A stretch of DNA of 45,107 nucleotides, taken from the IMG/VR virus record IMGVR_UViG_3300030061_001808, positions 1,117 to 46,223 of that record; one strand, given 5' to 3'. The DNA is from a virus. Under the pieces are notes generated by a model. The model was not told the origin of the DNA. It worked only from the letters and a program-made list of their open reading frames with translations, and did not search any database. Made by a program: the position numbers and the translations under genes. Of the stretch, positions 1 to 4,971 are shown in pieces; positions within the stretch are counted from its first letter, which is position 1; every line of letters starts with the position of its first letter.

Positions 1-119
1 CCTTTTGGCTGTGTGCGGATTATTATTGAATATGGAAATTGTATTGGTTTTTGTCCAGTATAAATACAATGTTCATTTCTAAAATCTAAGTGGGTTTTGT
101 AGCTCGTGTAATCTTTCAT
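1..119 (-). CDS. partial CDS, unknown product, runs off the left edge
   Basis: An open minus-strand frame begins with ATG at 119 and has no stop before the window edge, giving 39 codons. The visible start reads MKDYTSYKTHLDFRNEHC and is followed by a polar sequence with no recognisable motif. The frame is supported by context. A transcription terminator for the preceding leftward operon lies at 183-214, a TAnnTTTG-type box lies at 148-155 in the correct orientation, and the ATG follows an A/T-rich leader typical of this genome. Too little is visible to propose a function, and a chance frame cannot be excluded. Confidence 0.5.
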   Translation of the reverse strand, partial: MKDYTSYKTHLDFRNEHCIYTGQKPIQFPYSIIIRTQPK

Positions 120-147
120 AATAAAAAAATTTAAATTAATAATTAAG

Positions 148-155
148 CAAATTTA
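148..155 (-). promoter_or_regulatory. putative Bacteroidota -7 box TAAATTTG
   Basis: Read on the minus strand the bases are TAAATTTG, matching TAnnTTTG. It lies 28 nt before the ATG of the leftward edge gene and directly downstream of the terminator at 183-214. No convincing -33 element was found. Confidence 0.45.
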
Positions 156-182
156 GATTTAAACTGTGCAAAGTAATTGCAT

Positions 183-214
183 AAAAAAATGGTCCAGCTT
201 TTGAAAACTGGACC
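183..214 (-). terminator. rho-independent terminator of the leftward operon
   Basis: On the minus strand a 7-bp stem (GGTCCAG at 208-214 on that strand pairing with CTGGACC at 191-197) with a 10-nt loop is followed by A and a run of seven T (183-189 are A on the plus strand). It follows the last gene of the leftward operon by about 30 nt. Confidence 0.85.
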
Positions 215-243
215 AGATGATCTAAAGACGTGTTTTTTGGGTA

Positions 244-525
244 TTATATGGGTAACACTATTGCTTCAAGTAAGATTTTTTCTGCACATTCTGGACCTTC
301 AAAATATAATTCTGTGTCTTCATCTTGGTATATTTCGTATCCATTGTCTTGAATTTCTTGCTCTGCTTTTGCTACTTGTTCTTTATAGAATTGTCTTGCT
401 TCGTCTTCTGATTTAAAATATCGGCTATCAATATAATCCAATAAACCTTGATAGTGATGTACTGCGTATATAAACTCAATTTTTGTTTCATACGCTTTTT
501 TAAGTATAGCTTCGTGTTGTAACAT
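244..525 (-). CDS. hypothetical early protein, 93 aa
   Basis: Acidic, soluble, largely helical 93-residue protein. It starts MLQHEAILKKAYETKIEF and contains an E/Q/K-rich central segment (about residues 35-65) that could form a helix. There is no signal peptide, membrane segment or recognisable family motif. It is the last gene of the leftward operon, followed by a strong terminator and preceded by an 80-nt gap that contains a hairpin at 566-585. The position among several small unrelated genes transcribed away from the structural genes suggests an early, host-interacting accessory protein. That is inference from location only. Confidence 0.75.
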   Translation of the reverse strand: MLQHEAILKKAYETKIEFIYAVHHYQGLLDYIDSRYFKSEDEARQFYKEQVAKAEQEIQDNGYEIYQDEDTELYFEGPECAEKILLEAIVLPI

Positions 526-562
526 TATTTTTATTTTAGTTAATATTTGGTCTTCTACTGCG

Positions 563-585
563 AAAAGCCGACCAGTTGGTCAGCT
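563..585 (-). terminator. intergenic hairpin with short T run, possible attenuator
   Basis: On the minus strand an 8-bp stem containing one G-U wobble (578-585 with 566-573) closes a 4-nt loop and is followed by TTTT then CGC. The T run is short, so this could be a weak terminator or attenuator between the 77-aa and 93-aa genes. It lacks the CUGANGA and GAAA boxes of the ribozymes found further upstream in the same operon. Confidence 0.45.
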
Positions 586-608
586 AATCACAGAAACAAA
601 CACAAATA

Positions 609-842
609 TTAGCGGTATAAATCCTTTATTTCAAATACTTCAGTTGTCCCGAATTTTGCTTTAACTCTTTCAAGTTGTTCTTGTGCGTGTAGGTATTGTT
701 CCCAATGAAAGGGCAATACTTGATAATCTTTTTTATCGTCCAGCAAGTAATTCTTGAGAATTATTTTTTCTTGCTGCTTAATTATTTTTGTCCAAATATT
801 TATATTGTATTCCAGTTGTTCTAATTCGTTTTTAATATGCAT
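609..842 (-). CDS. hypothetical early protein, 77 aa
   Basis: A 77-residue, lysine- and glutamine-rich protein predicted to be mostly helical (two amphipathic stretches, about residues 3-32 and 45-64). The family is not recognised. It begins MHIKNELEQLEYNINIW and starts only 4 nt after the stop of the upstream 127-aa gene, so the two are translated from one message. There is no SD sequence, as is usual in this genome. Its helical, coiled-coil-like character would suit a small binding protein, but no specific function can be supported. Confidence 0.75.
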   Translation of the reverse strand: MHIKNELEQLEYNINIWTKIIKQQEKIILKNYLLDDKKDYQVLPFHWEQYLHAQEQLERVKAKFGTTEVFEIKDLYR

Positions 843-846
843 AATT

Positions 847-1230
847 TTAATATTTGTGAAAGTTTATATTTATTTCTTTTTCAATTAATCTCATCAAGTG
901 ACCAGCCATAAACAGAAAATAGTTTTCTATTATTTGGCTTTTCTTTTTTTCTGGAAATTTACCTTCAACAAGGCGTTCAGCTTGTTTAATTATTTGGTCT
1001 GGATATGCTTCACAAAAATTAAAAGCTAATCCACTTAAATAATCCGCAAGGCGTTCTTGTGTGTTTGGGTATCTTTTAAGGTTGTTTGGGTAGTTGATTT
1101 GTCTTTCTATGGTCTCGGCTAAATAGTGCAGCTTGTCGCTGTCGCTGAGGTGGTCCACGTCTTCGTTAATATCTGCAAGTATTTCATTTTTGAAATTTAA
1201 CTTGAATTTATTGGTGTTTGTTTTTAACAT
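847..1230 (-). CDS. hypothetical early protein, 127 aa
   Basis: The start is placed at the ATG at 1230 (MLKTNTNKFKLNFKN) rather than at an upstream in-frame ATG at 1332. The longer version would read through a conserved ribozyme-like element and overlap the neighbouring gene. The protein is helical and charged, with N-terminal K/N-rich and central D/E-rich stretches and a fairly hydrophobic C-terminal helix containing YFLFMAGHLMRLIEKE (about residues 102-120). No family was recognised. It is the first gene downstream of the hammerhead element at 1260-1316. If that RNA cleaves as predicted, this gene is translated from a message with a 35-nt leader. Confidence 0.75.
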   Translation of the reverse strand: MLKTNTNKFKLNFKNEILADINEDVDHLSDSDKLHYLAETIERQINYPNNLKRYPNTQERLADYLSGLAFNFCEAYPDQIIKQAERLVEGKFPEKKKSQIIENYFLFMAGHLMRLIEKEININFHKY

Positions 1231-1265
1231 TTTTTTAAATTTAATTAGTATTATTTTTAGTAATA
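1231..1265 (-). promoter_or_regulatory. 35-nt leader downstream of ribozyme copy A
   Basis: This is the segment between the predicted cleavage point (between 1266 and 1265) and the ATG at 1230. It is A/T-only except for isolated C, predicted unstructured. The first 30 nt (1236-1265) are identical to the corresponding part of copy B (1546-1575). Conservation of the leader as well as the ribozyme suggests a common duplicated cassette or selection on the translation start region. Confidence 0.6.
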
Positions 1266-1316
1266 GACAAGGAGAATATTCCCCTTGTTTCGCTGTTCTC
1301 AGCTCGTCAGTATTAC
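1260..1316 (-). ncRNA. type I hammerhead self-cleaving ribozyme, copy A
   Basis: Read 5' to 3' on the minus strand every part of a hammerhead is present in order. Stem I 5' strand GUAAUA (1316-1311) is followed by the CUGACGA box and stem II GCUG/CAGC closed by an AGAA loop. Then come GAAA, stem III starting CAAGG and ending CCUUG (with an inner G-U and AU-rich loop), U16.1-C17, and stem I 3' strand UAUUAC (1265-1260). G10.1-C11.1 and A15.1-U16.1 are correct, and the cleavage triplet is GUC, with cleavage predicted between 1266 and 1265. The UAA stop codon of the upstream gene (1313-1315) lies inside stem I, so a terminating ribosome should compete with folding. Stem III differs completely in sequence from copy B while staying paired. 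Confidence 0.93.
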
Positions 1317-1540
1317 AAGATTTCGTCTTCACATTCCCATTCTAACTTTCTCAGCATTTGTTCAAACGCTTTGATTAGTCCAACATCAAAAGCCCTCATA
1401 CCTTCGGCATCTGCTTCAAGTTGTTTTGATACTTCTTCAAAGTGTTCATTATTTTTAAAATACTCTTTTGCATCTTTTATTTCTTGTCTCAAGTATTCTT
1501 TTAAATGGGTTGTATATTCTAACGGGTTTTCTGTGTTCAT
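1313..1540 (-). CDS. hypothetical early protein, 75 aa, flanked by two ribozymes
   Basis: A 75-residue acidic, helical protein starting MNTENPLEYTTHLKEYL, with a long E/K/D-rich helix (about residues 10-45) and an acidic C-terminus (ECEDEIL). No motif was recognised. Its stop codon is embedded in stem I of hammerhead copy A, and its start codon lies 35 nt after the predicted cleavage point of copy B. The gene plus one ribozyme therefore forms a repeating unit. Cleavage at both sites would release a monocistronic message with a 5' hydroxyl end. Confidence 0.75.
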   Translation of the reverse strand: MNTENPLEYTTHLKEYLRQEIKDAKEYFKNNEHFEEVSKQLEADAEGMRAFDVGLIKAFEQMLRKLEWECEDEIL

Positions 1541-1575
1541 TTTAGTAAATTTAATTAGTATTATTTTTAGTAATA
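1541..1575 (-). promoter_or_regulatory. 35-nt leader downstream of ribozyme copy B
   Basis: The segment from the predicted cleavage point (between 1576 and 1575) to the ATG at 1540. It has exactly the same length as the copy A leader and is identical over the 30 nt nearest the ribozyme. Only the last five bases before the start codon differ. Confidence 0.6.
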
Positions 1576-1623
1576 GACGCGGAATAAATCCGCGTTTCGC
1601 TGTTCTCAGCTCGTCAGTATTAC
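1570..1623 (-). ncRNA. type I hammerhead self-cleaving ribozyme, copy B
   Basis: It has the same architecture as copy A on the minus strand. Stem I is GUAAUA (1623-1618) with UAUUAC (1575-1570), followed by the CUGACGA box, stem II GCUG-AGAA-CAGC, GAAA, and stem III CGCGGA/UCCGCG with a 5-nt loop (1577-1595 region). The cleavage triplet is GUC at the 3' side, with cleavage predicted between 1576 and 1575. The core and flanks are identical to copy A (33 nt on one side, 30 nt on the other), but stem III has a different sequence that still pairs perfectly. That pattern argues for selection on structure. The stop codon of the upstream gene (1620-1622) sits in stem I. Confidence 0.93.
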
Positions 1624-1886
1624 GCTATTTCAAACTCGCGGACGCTCTTTCTCTTGCCGCAAGGGGAGACGCTCACAAGCTCAGAAATGAAGCCGCTGCG
1701 GTCTCTATAAACTATTTCTTGACCTCCTAAGTTTTCAAACCATGCAATCGTATCATCTGAGGTAATACGTTCGTATGTTTCAAGGTCTATTTGTTCCTCC
1801 TTAATCTCTCCGTTGAGTTGCCACATTGGGAGGGGTCTATAATCCTCGTTAAGGTCGTAAGTTGCATAAATTAAGTTAATTTTCAT
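1620..1886 (-). CDS. hypothetical early protein, 88 aa
   Basis: The start is chosen at the ATG at 1886 (MKINLIYATYDLNEDYRPLP). The longer in-frame start at 1991 would overlap the upstream gene and read through an intergenic hairpin. The 88-residue product looks like a small alpha/beta protein. It has a beta-strand-like N-terminus, an acidic helix around residues 28-42, and a C-terminal part containing a basic patch (CGKRKSVREFEI). The family was not recognised. The stop codon lies inside stem I of hammerhead copy B. Confidence 0.75.
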   Translation of the reverse strand: MKINLIYATYDLNEDYRPLPMWQLNGEIKEEQIDLETYERITSDDTIAWFENLGGQEIVYRDRSGFISELVSVSPCGKRKSVREFEIA

Positions 1887-1901
1887 AAGATAAAAATTTG
1901 T

Positions 1902-1924
1902 GAGCGGGAGAATGTCCCCCGCTC
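1902..1924 (-). other. intergenic stem-loop related to ribozyme stem III
   Basis: A perfect 7-bp stem (GAGCGGG with CCCGCTC) has an inner extension whose apical part (GGA, short loop, TTCT) resembles the stem III apex of ribozyme copy A. The CUGANGA and GAAA boxes are absent, so it is not a hammerhead. It lies between the 118-aa and 88-aa genes and is followed on the minus strand by ACAAA and TTTTT. It could be a weak terminator, an RNA stabiliser or a ribozyme relic. Confidence 0.6.
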
Positions 1925-1938
1925 TGATTAGTATTAAA

Positions 1939-2295
1939 TTAGTAGTTGATTTGTTTTCTAAGGAATATCCAGTCCGATAATTTCCAATCATAAAGAAGGT
2001 TATTAGCTACCATGCGGACGGCTTCCCAGCTCATATCTGGTTTTTTGTCCTTGATACAGTCCAGAAGAATTTCATAATATACATTTGAAATGTTCCATTC
2101 TGCCTCTTCTTTCATCATTTTTTCGGAGGTTTGAAACCCTTTGGCTGTGTATGATTGGTCTTTGTAGGTTAATTTAATGCGTTCAAATTCGTTTAATACT
2201 TTTGTATTATACAAGAGAACGAAATCTGAAATAGACCCGCAAACGTAATTTTTGCGCTGCTTGTCTGTAACTGTGAAAAGAGGTTTTTTTACCAT
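1939..2295 (-). CDS. hypothetical early protein, 118 aa, first gene of leftward operon
   Basis: A 118-residue protein starting MVKKPLFTVTDKQRKNYVCG. It is mixed alpha/beta with a Trp-rich C-terminal third (MSWEAVRMVANNLLYDWKLS). No signal peptide, membrane segment or recognised motif is present. It is the promoter-proximal gene of the leftward operon and faces the 516-bp divergent intergenic region, so it is likely to be among the first genes expressed. The A/T-rich leader before its ATG resembles that of other genes in the window. The function is unknown. Confidence 0.78.
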   Translation of the reverse strand: MVKKPLFTVTDKQRKNYVCGSISDFVLLYNTKVLNEFERIKLTYKDQSYTAKGFQTSEKMMKEEAEWNISNVYYEILLDCIKDKKPDMSWEAVRMVANNLLYDWKLSDWIFLRKQINY

Positions 2296-2445
2296 GTTTT
2301 TATTTATTTAATTAATATTTGTATTTGCAATAGTACAAAAAATAAATTGAATAAATGCAATAAAAGTATAATAATTATATAAAAATAAGCTCATGTTGAT
2401 AAATAAATAAATAATGTTAATAACTATTTAATAATCAATTAATTA
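2296..2445. promoter_or_regulatory. AT-rich divergent upstream region
   Basis: About 150 bp of almost pure A/T between the first leftward gene and the GC-rich island. It should contain the promoter of the leftward operon. On the minus strand the best candidate is a TATTTTTTG stretch about 45 nt before the ATG, which has one extra base relative to TAnnTTTG. No gene is visible. Confidence 0.4.
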
Positions 2446-2757
2446 CGTGGATTTTGTCGGGCGGTTTTGTTTGTGTTCGGTCGTGTTCGCTCTGGGGTAA
2501 AGGGGAAGGGCTGAACGTGTGCAGCTCCCCAGACGGGGGAAGGAGGACGCGGAAGGGCGGGACGCGGTCCAGCATATGGACACCAAACAAGGACACCAAC
2601 AGCAACCACCAGACGACCAGCAGCAGACCAACAACAGACCAACGGGGTAAAAGTAAAAGCCAAAACAACCAGCCAAAAAAAAACAAATCACAACCCCCCA
2701 CCCCAAAAAAAAAGCGTTTTTCTGACGGCACGTGTGCGCGCATAACGTAGTAGTACC
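2446..2757. other. GC-rich, strand-asymmetric non-coding island
   Basis: About 310 bp whose base composition is unlike the rest of the window. It runs from G/T-rich (2446-2500) through G/A-rich with several G runs (2492-2560) to C/A-rich (2575-2715, ending in C and A homopolymer runs). Frames are open in several registers only because the AT-rich stop codons are missing; none has a plausible start or amino-acid composition. Local pairing is possible, for example CTGGGG at 2492 with CCCCAG near 2527, enclosing GCTG/CAGC. There is also a repeated ACGTGTGC (2515 and 2730) and a repeated GACGCGG. The island sits at the divergence of the two transcription arms. A replication origin, a packaging or terminus region, or a structured RNA are all possible. 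Confidence 0.6.
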
Positions 2758-2788
2758 CTCAACCTCTAATTATCTAACAAAAATTTAT

Positions 2789-2796
2789 TATCTTTA
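2789..2796 (+). promoter_or_regulatory. putative -7 box TATCTTTA
   Basis: One mismatch to TATCTTTG, in the same TTATTATCTTT context seen before other gene blocks. It ends 15 nt before the ATG of the 77-aa gene at 2812. Confidence 0.6.
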
Positions 2797-2811
2797 CAGA
2801 AAAAAGAAATC

Positions 2812-3045
2812 ATGGCATACGAAAAAAGAATATCACCAGGCAGTAATATGTCTGATATGGTAGACGGTCTATATGTAAAAGACGGTCGTTTAATAAATGC
2901 AAGACCTGACGGTATGAGTGGAATACAACAAGCGTCTATGTATAGATCACAAATGAAAAAACAATACAAGATAGATTGTATAGCTGACGGTATTGAAAGA
3001 GCTAAGATGAGAATGGACGGTGATAAAAATATTTACGAACTATAA
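2812..3045 (+). CDS. hypothetical protein, 77 aa
   Basis: A 77-residue soluble protein starting MAYEKRISPGSNMSDMVDGL. It is rich in Met, Asp and Gly, with short repeated DG turns (VDGLYVKDGRL, RPDGMSG, MDGDKN) and a basic middle helix (SQMKKQYKIDC). No family was recognised. It is a single-gene transcription unit, with its own promoter box 15 nt upstream and a strong terminator 30 nt downstream (3075-3107). It is the first rightward gene after the GC-rich island, so it is likely expressed separately and possibly early. Confidence 0.75.
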   Translation: MAYEKRISPGSNMSDMVDGLYVKDGRLINARPDGMSGIQQASMYRSQMKKQYKIDCIADGIERAKMRMDGDKNIYEL

Positions 3046-3074
3046 GACTTCCCCGTTGTTTTAGTTAGTGAAAG

Positions 3075-3107
3075 TAGGACGATCAAATAGATTGTCCTAT
3101 TTTTTTT
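3075..3107 (+). terminator. rho-independent terminator
   Basis: A 10-bp stem with one G-T wobble (3075-3084 with 3090-3099) and a 5-nt loop (3085-3089) is followed by eight T (3100-3107). It ends the 77-aa gene's transcript. Confidence 0.9.
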
Positions 3108-3347
3108 GGTTATATTCCGCTTTATTCCGTTTTAATTCCGTTTTTTTCCCAGATTAAAAGATTTAGTTAACTTAACTTAACTTACTGATTAAGAATATAT
3201 TATATAAAATCAATGACATAATTCCATATTAAAAGAGTAAAAGTCAAATAAAAAAAACATATTATATAAAATAAAAAAATATATAAAAGCCATAGTTAAC
3301 CACACAAAAGCGGAATCTCGTCATGCGTATGATTATATTTATTTTGT
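3108..3347. repeat. repeat-rich regulatory region before groEL
   Basis: This 240-bp gap holds several repeat families and no gene. ATTCCG occurs at 3114, 3124 and 3135 (spacing 10 and 11 bp, so on one face of the helix), with an inverted copy CGGAAT at 3311-3316. TTAAC is repeated in tandem three times at 3167-3181. A 14-bp direct repeat ATATTATATAAAAT is at 3197-3210 and 3259-3272. The layout suits binding sites for a regulator or a replication initiator. Which protein binds is not visible. Confidence 0.6.
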
Positions 3348-3355
3348 TATATTTG
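3348..3355 (+). promoter_or_regulatory. promoter box TATATTTG for groEL-groES
   Basis: Exact TAnnTTTG match 26 nt before the groEL ATG, followed by the AATTAAATTAAATT leader (3365-3378) that recurs before other genes. Confidence 0.7.
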
Positions 3356-3381
3356 CCATATTATAATTAAATTAAATTCAA

Positions 3382-4971
3382 ATGACTTACATTCCAAAGA
3401 CCTTGAGTTTTGATGATGAAGGTAGATCAAAATTAATCACAGGCATAACATCAATATCTAAAACAGTAAAGAGTACATTAGGACCATTAGGCAAAACAGT
3501 ATTGTTAGAATCTCCTGAGCATACATCAGGAATGACAATAACTAAAGATGGGGTTACAGTAGCTCGTTCTATATTTCTAAATGATCCTATTGAAAACCTT
3601 GCTGTTCAAATGATGAAGGGTGCAGCAGATAGAACTGCTAATTCAGCTGGTGATGGTACAACAACTGCTATAGTATTAACAGAAGCAATTGTCATGGCAG
3701 GTCAAGAGTTTATTAAACCTGAGCATAATACCACAGAGATTATTAGACATATAAATAAATTAACTCAAGATGTTATAGGTGGAGTAAAAAAGAAATCAAG
3801 AAAGATTACTAAAGATCGTTTATTAGATGTTGCTTGTATTTCTGCAAACAATGATAAGTCTATTGGTAATATAATAGCTGATGCTTATGACAAGGTTGGT
3901 ATAAACGGAATAGTAACTGTTGAAAGATCTAAAAGTTCTGCAACATATGCAGAGGTTACAAACGGATTAAAAATAGAAAGAGGTTATTCGTCAAACTTAT
4001 TTATTAATAATCAAAAGAAAGACGAGTGTATACTTGAAGATGTTAAGATTTTAGTATGTGATGCTTCTATAGAAAGTATATTGCAAATAGAAAATGTTTT
4101 AAAACCAGTTATTAATAACGGTGACAAGTTATTAATCATTGCTCCTTGTTCAACTAACGTGATTAATACATTAGCAGCTAACGTTGTTCGTAATGGATTA
4201 AAGTTTTGTAATATAGCCCCACCATCATTTGGATACAAGACCCATGAACTAATGCAAGATATAGCATTAGCAGTAGGAGCTAAATACTTTAGTGAAAAAA
4301 CTGGAGACGACTTAAGTCTTATAATGCCAAAAGATTTGGGTCATGCAGATAAAATAATATGTAACAATGAAAGCACCATTGTTATAAAAGAAGAAAATAC
4401 AACTGAAGAACTACAAATAAGAATTGACGAGTTAAAAGAAGCCAGAGATTCAGTAGAGAAAAATGTAGATAGAAAGTTTATTAATGAAAGGATTGCAAGT
4501 TTAGCTGGATCTATTGGCTGTATATATGTTGGTGGAAATAGTGATATAGAGCAAAAAGAAAAGTATGATAGGGTTGATGATTCAGTATGTGCAGTTAGAT
4601 CAGCTTTAGAAGAAGGTATAGTTGCTGGTGGAGGTATCTCATTATTTCGCGCATCTTTACTTTTAGACAAACACAAAAGTAAAGATGAAAATGCTGAGGT
4701 AGCTTCGTTAATTTTAAAGACAGCATTAAGGGCGCCAATAAAACAAATAATAGATAATGGCGGAAAAGATTGTGATAAAATAATTAATCATATATTTGAT
4801 AAGCCATACAATACAGGCTATGATTTAAAGAATGATTGTTTTGGCGATATGTTTAAGATGGGTGTAATAGATCCATTGAAAGTAACAAAGAACGCATTAA
4901 TAAATGCAGTTAGTGTTGCAACAACAATATTAAGCACTAATGCTATTGTAACGAACGTAAGAGCAGAATAA
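3382..4971 (+). CDS. groL: phage-encoded chaperonin GroEL (Cpn60)
   Basis: A 529-residue group I chaperonin that forms the ATP-driven folding chamber with GroES. Visible landmarks are LGPLGKTVLL (33-42), TKDG (54-57), the nucleotide motif GDGTTTA (90-96, catalytic Asp 91), Asp 400 in the segment matching the E. coli D398 region, AGGG (415-418) and GVIDP (494-498). All catalytic residues appear intact. It is slightly shorter than the usual 540-550 residues and lacks the C-terminal GGM repeat tail. It lies 1 nt before groES, reversed from the usual groES-groEL order. Known phage chaperonins help fold capsid or tail proteins; that this one acts on the unusually large fibre, muzzle or capsid proteins encoded here is inference. 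The A/T-rich leader and codon use match the other phage genes. Confidence 0.97.
   Translation: MTYIPKTLSFDDEGRSKLITGITSISKTVKSTLGPLGKTVLLESPEHTSGMTITKDGVTVARSIFLNDPIENLAVQMMKGAADRTANSAGDGTTTAIVLTEAIVMAGQEFIKPEHNTTEIIRHINKLTQDVIGGVKKKSRKITKDRLLDVACISANNDKSIGNIIADAYDKVGINGIVTVERSKSSATYAEVTNGLKIERGYSSNLFINNQKKDECILEDVKILVCDASIESILQIENVLKPVINNGDKLLIIAPCSTNVINTLAANVVRNGLKFCNIAPPSFGYKTHELMQDIALAVGAKYFSEKTGDDLSLIMPKDLGHADKIICNNESTIVIKEENTTEELQIRIDELKEARDSVEKNVDRKFINERIASLAGSIGCIYVGGNSDIEQKEKYDRVDDSVCAVRSALEEGIVAGGGISLFRASLLLDKHKSKDENAEVASLILKTALRAPIKQIIDNGGKDCDKIINHIFDKPYNTGYDLKNDCFGDMFKMGVIDPLKVTKNALINAVSVATTILSTNAIVTNVRAE

Follow-up and report, generated by a model that had tools for sequence, protein, structure and literature searches.

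Two near-identical type I hammerhead ribozymes occupy consecutive gene junctions on the minus strand of a phage genome. They lie in what is likely to be one early operon, whose polycistronic transcript they probably split, by self-cleavage, into gene-length mRNAs. From their structure, both are very probably active. The window, that is, the whole stretch of DNA analysed here (45,107 nt), comprises positions 1117-46223 of a virus record 63,777 bases long, the remainder of which was also searched, by pattern and by covariance model. The virus is a marine phage of Bacteroidota, with Flavobacteriia as its probable host group. The putative operon consists of six minus-strand genes, running from F (start at 2295) to A (end at 244), all of unknown function, with the two ribozymes in the order F-E-HHR1-D-HHR2-C-B-A, and it diverges from a set of rightward genes that includes groEL. 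The features are as follows, in the order of the minus-strand transcript, with groEL last:

1939 to 2295, minus strand: gene F, 118 aa, first gene of the operon
1620 to 1886, minus strand: gene E, 88 aa, with its stop codon TAA (1622-1620) within stem I of copy 1
1570 to 1623, minus strand: type I hammerhead copy 1 (the 5' copy in the transcript), E/D junction, predicted cut 1576/1575
1541 to 1575, minus strand: leader of the gene D mRNA after the predicted cut, 35 nt, A/U-rich, 5'-OH expected from the cleavage site
1313 to 1540, minus strand: gene D, 75 aa, with a ribozyme on either side
1260 to 1316, minus strand: type I hammerhead copy 2, D/C junction, predicted cut 1266/1265
1231 to 1265, minus strand: leader of the gene C mRNA after the predicted cut, 35 nt, A/U-rich, 5'-OH expected from the cleavage site
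847 to 1230, minus strand: gene C, 127 aa, with its ATG at 1230, 35 nt past the predicted copy 2 cut
609 to 842, minus strand: gene B, 77 aa
244 to 525, minus strand: gene A, 93 aa, last gene of the operon
190 to 215, minus strand: terminator-like hairpin with TTTTTTT after it, where the operon probably ends
3382 to 4971, rightward: phage-encoded GroEL chaperonin

The other junctions of the operon are devoid of ribozymes. Folding found no structure at the C/B junction, and the F/E and B/A junctions carry plain hairpins. That at F/E (1924-1902, minus strand) is GC-rich, has no ribozyme core and is kept in the relative L204. That at B/A (600-533, minus strand) is long and imperfect (-33 kcal/mol, z -8.8) and is predicted in L204 and in another relative, L211, too; it has no matching Rfam family and is possibly another processed junction element. 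A noncoding stretch between the divergent operons (2624-2820) retains 74-81% identity in the distant relatives L205, L206, L208 and L211, and could be a promoter, an origin or an RNA element.

Both ribozymes contain every hammerhead part in order. In copy 2, stem I (GUAAUA/UAUUAC) is formed by 1316-1311 and 1265-1260, CUGACGA occupies 1310-1304, stem II (GCUG/CAGC, 1303-1300/1295-1292) is closed by an AGAA loop, GAA lies at 1291-1289, and a stem III of 9 bp (1288-1280/1275-1267) leads to C17 at 1266. In copy 1, the corresponding segments are 1623-1618/1575-1570 for stem I, 1617-1611 for the core, 1610-1607/1602-1599 for stem II and 1598-1596 for GAA, with a stem III of 7 bp (1595-1589/1583-1577) and C17 at 1576. 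The catalytic core (CUGACGA, GAAA and U16.1-C17) is complete in both copies. Pairs 10.1-11.1 (G-C), 15.1-16.1 (A-U) and 1.1-2.1 are formed in both, and the three stems are recovered by the minimum-energy fold, by a descriptor and by a covariance model. The topology is that of type I, stem I being open and stems II and III loop-closed. Folded by itself, each element has the hammerhead as its minimum-energy structure (-17.8 and -17.9 kcal/mol; z -4.5 and -3.7). As regards a contact between loop II and stem I, just a preference for A adjoining stem I was observed, and no contact pattern was defined.

A first-pass annotation, made from the letters of the sequence, had reported two complete type I hammerheads at these minus-strand positions; folding, the covariance model and a shuffled-window control confirm them, and its cuts, 1266|1265 and 1576|1575, agree with ours. 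It had also taken the two stem IIIs, different in sequence and fully paired between identical flanks, as direct evidence of covariation. The flanks and the core are indeed identical, but because the stem IIIs measure 9 and 7 bp, their difference is not column-by-column covariation. Similarly, the elements had been described as running exactly from one stop codon to just before the next start; each does sit at its junction, but with a 4-nt overlap on the stop and with 29 nt left between its end and the ATG.

The assignment was examined with a covariance model, R1, built from ten unrelated phage hammerheads that lie on other contigs and have a different stem II. Its alignment was made of rows with stem III of equal length; MAFFT run on mixed stem III lengths misaligned that stem. 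In a search of the whole 45-kb window, R1 returned exactly two matches, both of them the ribozymes (copy 1, 31.7 bits, E 1e-7; copy 2, 28.8 bits, E 9e-7), and the three-stem descriptor gave zero type I matches in 400 shuffled windows. When viral-contig sites were picked by core and stem II alone, stems I and III were found to form in 75/109 and 108/125 of the distinct sites listed, against expectations of 1.5 and 0.9 with shuffled flanks. A scan of bacterial genomes yielded mostly chance cores, with both other stems present at 6 of the 95 distinct sites listed. The phage-wide counts of compensatory pairs indicate strong covariation and are supportive only, because they are drawn from sequences already chosen for pairing.

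The Rfam type I model, which had been named as a check on the annotation, gave a divided answer. No Rfam family matched the window at gathering cut-offs, and a scan of 2.8 kb at E<=10 listed no hammerhead; short stretches searched alone did give matches. RF00163 (Hammerhead_1) aligns correctly with copy 1 over its full length, with all three stems and the core, but the score of 20.2 bits (E 0.0052 in the short search) lies below the gathering score of 34 bits, and the consensus stem II and loop of the family differ from those of copy 1. With RF03152 (RAGATH-1-hammerhead), both copies match model positions 26-77, leaving the first 25 positions unmatched, and score 29.2 bits (copy 2) and 22.2 bits (copy 1), far under the gathering score of 56.3. 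Since eleven other loci with descriptor-positive phage hammerheads gave no gathering-score match either, the miss reflects the cut-off and not membership.

Comparison with relatives shows that the stems change in sequence with their pairing kept. At the orthologous junctions, identified by flanking DNA, a stem III A-U pair has become C-G in L204, and stem II has passed from GCUG/CAGC to GUCC/GGAC in L211; with the stem II variants of the elemo phages (see below) and the shuffled-flank test, these amount to compensatory change in the hammerhead stems. Both window copies, and the ribozymes at the orthologous L204 and L211 junctions, retain the entire catalytic core. Such a core would be superfluous in a plain hairpin, and it is very improbable that the elements are nothing but stable 3' hairpins, terminator-like or serving as exonuclease stops, that resemble hammerheads, even though plain hairpins do occur at other junctions of the operon and stems II and III far exceed the rest of the elements in stability. 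The presence of type I hammerheads at consecutive gene junctions, as first annotated, is thus upheld by an independent covariance model, by folding, by compensatory changes at orthologous junctions and by other phages.

Of the two products of hammerhead cleavage, the upstream one ends in a 2',3'-cyclic phosphate and the downstream one begins with a 5'-hydroxyl, and, as members of this family, the two window elements would be expected to cleave themselves and to leave the same ends. In the mechanism that we favour, the polycistronic transcript would be made and each ribozyme would fold just past the stop codon of the preceding gene, with its cut 44-47 nt beyond that stop and 35 nt short of the next ATG. 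Stems II and III would stay with the upstream mRNA as a folded 3' end carrying the cyclic phosphate, and the downstream mRNA would start with a short unstructured leader bearing a 5'-OH. Gene-sized mRNAs with protected 3' ends would result, the stability and translation of which could be set separately, and neither terminators nor host RNases would be needed at the ribozyme junctions. Such an arrangement would presumably be of benefit to the phage.

Against transcript processing stand the junctions devoid of ribozymes (C/B, F/E and B/A), the relative L205, in which none was detected, and a folding prediction: with 60 nt of flanking sequence on each element, the probability of stem I drops to 0.13 for copy 2 and 0.00 for copy 1. 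Low values in a flanked context are typical of phage type I copies (median 0.06 over at least 216 of them) and arise because the upstream coding sequence competes for pairing; the thermodynamic folding model ignores tertiary contacts and ribosomes. Because ribosomes on the upstream gene would remove this competition, one may speculate that cleavage depends on translation. A different role has been considered on the same grounds, namely that the cut mainly lowers or times expression, the 5'-OH downstream mRNA, deprived of upstream ribosomes, being less translated or differently decayed. The ribozyme would then be an attenuator, perhaps gated by ribosomes, as the position of the stop codon inside or at stem I in most of the type I copies listed might suggest, together with the fact that folding fails when the upstream coding sequence can pair and succeeds when it is excluded. 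However, the leader of about 33 nt that precedes the next ATG in most lineages listed seems well fitted to continued translation of the downstream gene, and we regard attenuation as unlikely in comparison with processing into separate mRNAs.

Ribozymes and genes are gained and lost together. The closest relative, L204 (93% identical), is without gene D and without one ribozyme, and window positions 1-1316 and 1538-3400 align to L204 stretches that have 86 nt in common, this overlap coinciding exactly with the repeat. Because gene D is missing from L204 together with one ribozyme, gene and ribozyme act as a cassette. The CGCGG stem III of copy 1 is also found in the sole ribozyme of L204 and in the L211 ribozyme that precedes gene C. 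Most simply, gene D would have come in together with copy 2, its own 3' ribozyme, the alternative being a deletion in L204; no homologue of gene D was found in viral contigs. A similar presence or absence of a ribozyme-bounded gene distinguishes L027/L051 from L064/L012 in another phage family. Both cases, with the 86-nt overlap at the repeat, would fit ribozymes that serve mainly as recombination seams, repeats by which small genes move as cassettes, with self-cleavage being incidental or selfish. Yet just 9 of the 61 indels detected near arrays have their breakpoint at a ribozyme, which does not establish an enrichment, and recombination alone would not demand that stem sequences vary with pairing kept. 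We consider this explanation improbable and retain transcript processing.

The search for the element in relatives, also proposed in the first-pass annotation, was fruitful: besides the orthologous copies in L204 and L211, the same arrangement occurs in many phages. All copies detected in GroEL-bearing relatives lie on the strand opposite GroEL, within the same early operon, and between a quarter and a third of the fetched relatives' loci have hammerheads upstream of GroEL on the opposite strand. No ribozyme was detected in relative L205 (88% GroEL identity), and the stretches of relatives fetched around the portal gene end short of the early region. The relative of record G020 (L536 and L537) has eight type I covariance-model matches, the highest number found in one relative.

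The phage had been called crAss-like, a label that is not supported, because its terminase and portal matches lie with elemo phages, Panino, Pervagoviridae and Pachyviridae. For both proteins, the closest among the matches listed is the uncultured podovirus genome MW202828.1 (73% and 69%), followed by Flavobacterium elemo phages, Maribacter phage Panino, and Cellulophaga and Tenacibaculum phages. The matches that were looked up belong to Elemovirus, Pervagoviridae or Pachyviridae, or are unassigned, two terminase matches listed only as 'uncultured' being left out; none of the terminase and portal matches listed is named as a member of Crassvirales.

The nearest cultured relatives are the Flavobacterium elemo phages, in which the same elements are present. 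In elemoA (NC_055852.1), a type III hammerhead lies in the leader of the early operon and a type I inside it; in Cellulophaga phage phi19:3 (NC_021789.1), a type I copy lies between gp051, whose stop it overlaps, and gp050. In the elemoA record, the predicted type I cut falls within 17346-17291 and the predicted type III cut just after 19132, on the minus strand. Both resemble the window in strand logic and junction position, and their type I copies are matched by R1 with E 5.7e-13 and 2.3e-10, respectively; elemoA differs in its extra leader type III and in one A.A mismatch in the type I stem III. The annotated plus-strand CDS gp68 of elemoA (L526:5276-5383) runs antisense over its type I ribozyme and is probably a spurious gene call. 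Among the elemo phages, for which 68 records are deposited and which share a single host, Flavobacterium sp. BAL314, stem II exists in two paired forms, GACU/AGUC (as in elemoA_7-9A) and GGUU/AACC (as in elemoB_14-3B), which are compensatory. The type I stem II of elemoD_13-5B (L529) and elemoF_6-3D (L532) reads GACU/AACC, with two mismatches; it is apparently an intermediate or recombinant of the two paired forms, and these phages are apparently natural weak mutants. With paired and doubly mismatched variants at hand, RNA sequencing can put the role of the ribozyme to the test, no engineered mutants being needed.

The position of these elements relative to genes follows a sharp rule. In a sample of at least 85 non-redundant arrays, with at least 108 type I copies, the 5' end of the ribozyme coincides with the upstream stop codon (median distance -1 nt), and 30 nt separate the cut from the next ATG. 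An abutting stop together with an ATG no more than 100 nt from the cut was found for 81% of the 108 non-redundant type I copies listed, versus 5.8% of random positions, and a second sample, picked by another stem II sequence, shows the same placement. With one value per lineage, as defined by translated similarity (at least 69 type I and at least 21 type III lineages), the distance from stop to ribozyme is 0 nt for type I and 36 nt for type III among the lineages listed (Mann-Whitney p 2e-5), and that from cut to ATG 33 and 67 nt, respectively (p 0.002). The distance from stop to cut is similar in both topologies, since it amounts to 49 and 43 nt in the lineages listed (p 0.57); in the window copies it is 44 and 47 nt, with 35 nt from cut to ATG. 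Relative to the cut, the ribozyme body is upstream in type I and downstream in type III. In 13/13 of the non-redundant mixed arrays listed, type III comes before type I, an order to be taken as a lead only, because these 13 arrays collapse to 4 coarse lineages. L027, L051, L021 and L074 have type III and type II in one operon, and L027 and L051 have type I as well.

One might tentatively go further and see in hammerhead topology a positional code, a generalization that we consider possible though doubtful. Type III would be placed in leaders or close before starts and type I on stops, the cut falling about 45 nt past the stop in both; the folded ribozyme would stay with the downstream mRNA, at its 5' end, in type III, and with the upstream mRNA, at its 3' end, in type I. 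A gene would move with its own ribozyme as a cassette, and both ends of its mRNA would be ribozyme-defined.

The text of Perreault et al. 2011 (PMC3088659), as far as it is covered here, describes clustered prophage hammerheads that flank single genes or short gene blocks and proposes that they cut long phage transcripts into gene-length mRNAs. According to the same text, three clusters cleaved in vitro, and that of A. tumefaciens also in E. coli. Because transcript processing was proposed there for such clusters, the window elements can be seen as further members of the clustered phage hammerheads. They share with those prophages the presence of several hammerheads flanking genes in a phage genome; unlike them, going by the part of the paper considered, they belong to a phage of Bacteroidota and are near-identical copies at consecutive junctions. 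That text, figures aside, states no rule on the spacing from stop codons or on the order of types. A 2017 review (PMC6155905) counts the role of hammerheads in prokaryotes among the open questions, and a 2023 paper (PMC10085705) reports enrichment near phage genes and other ribozymes, the reason being unknown. In the related literature, covered in part and figures aside, we found no earlier report of the spacing and topology rule, the elemo stem II variants or the cassette behaviour. Tandem copies acting as gene separators, put forward in the first-pass annotation as a notable system, are the best explanation of the present data, but the idea is that of Perreault et al. 2011. What is added here is that the copies are genuine, that a sharp placement rule holds across phages and makes a quantitative prediction of the positions at which phage transcripts are cut, and that cultured relatives are available for testing the role of these ribozymes.
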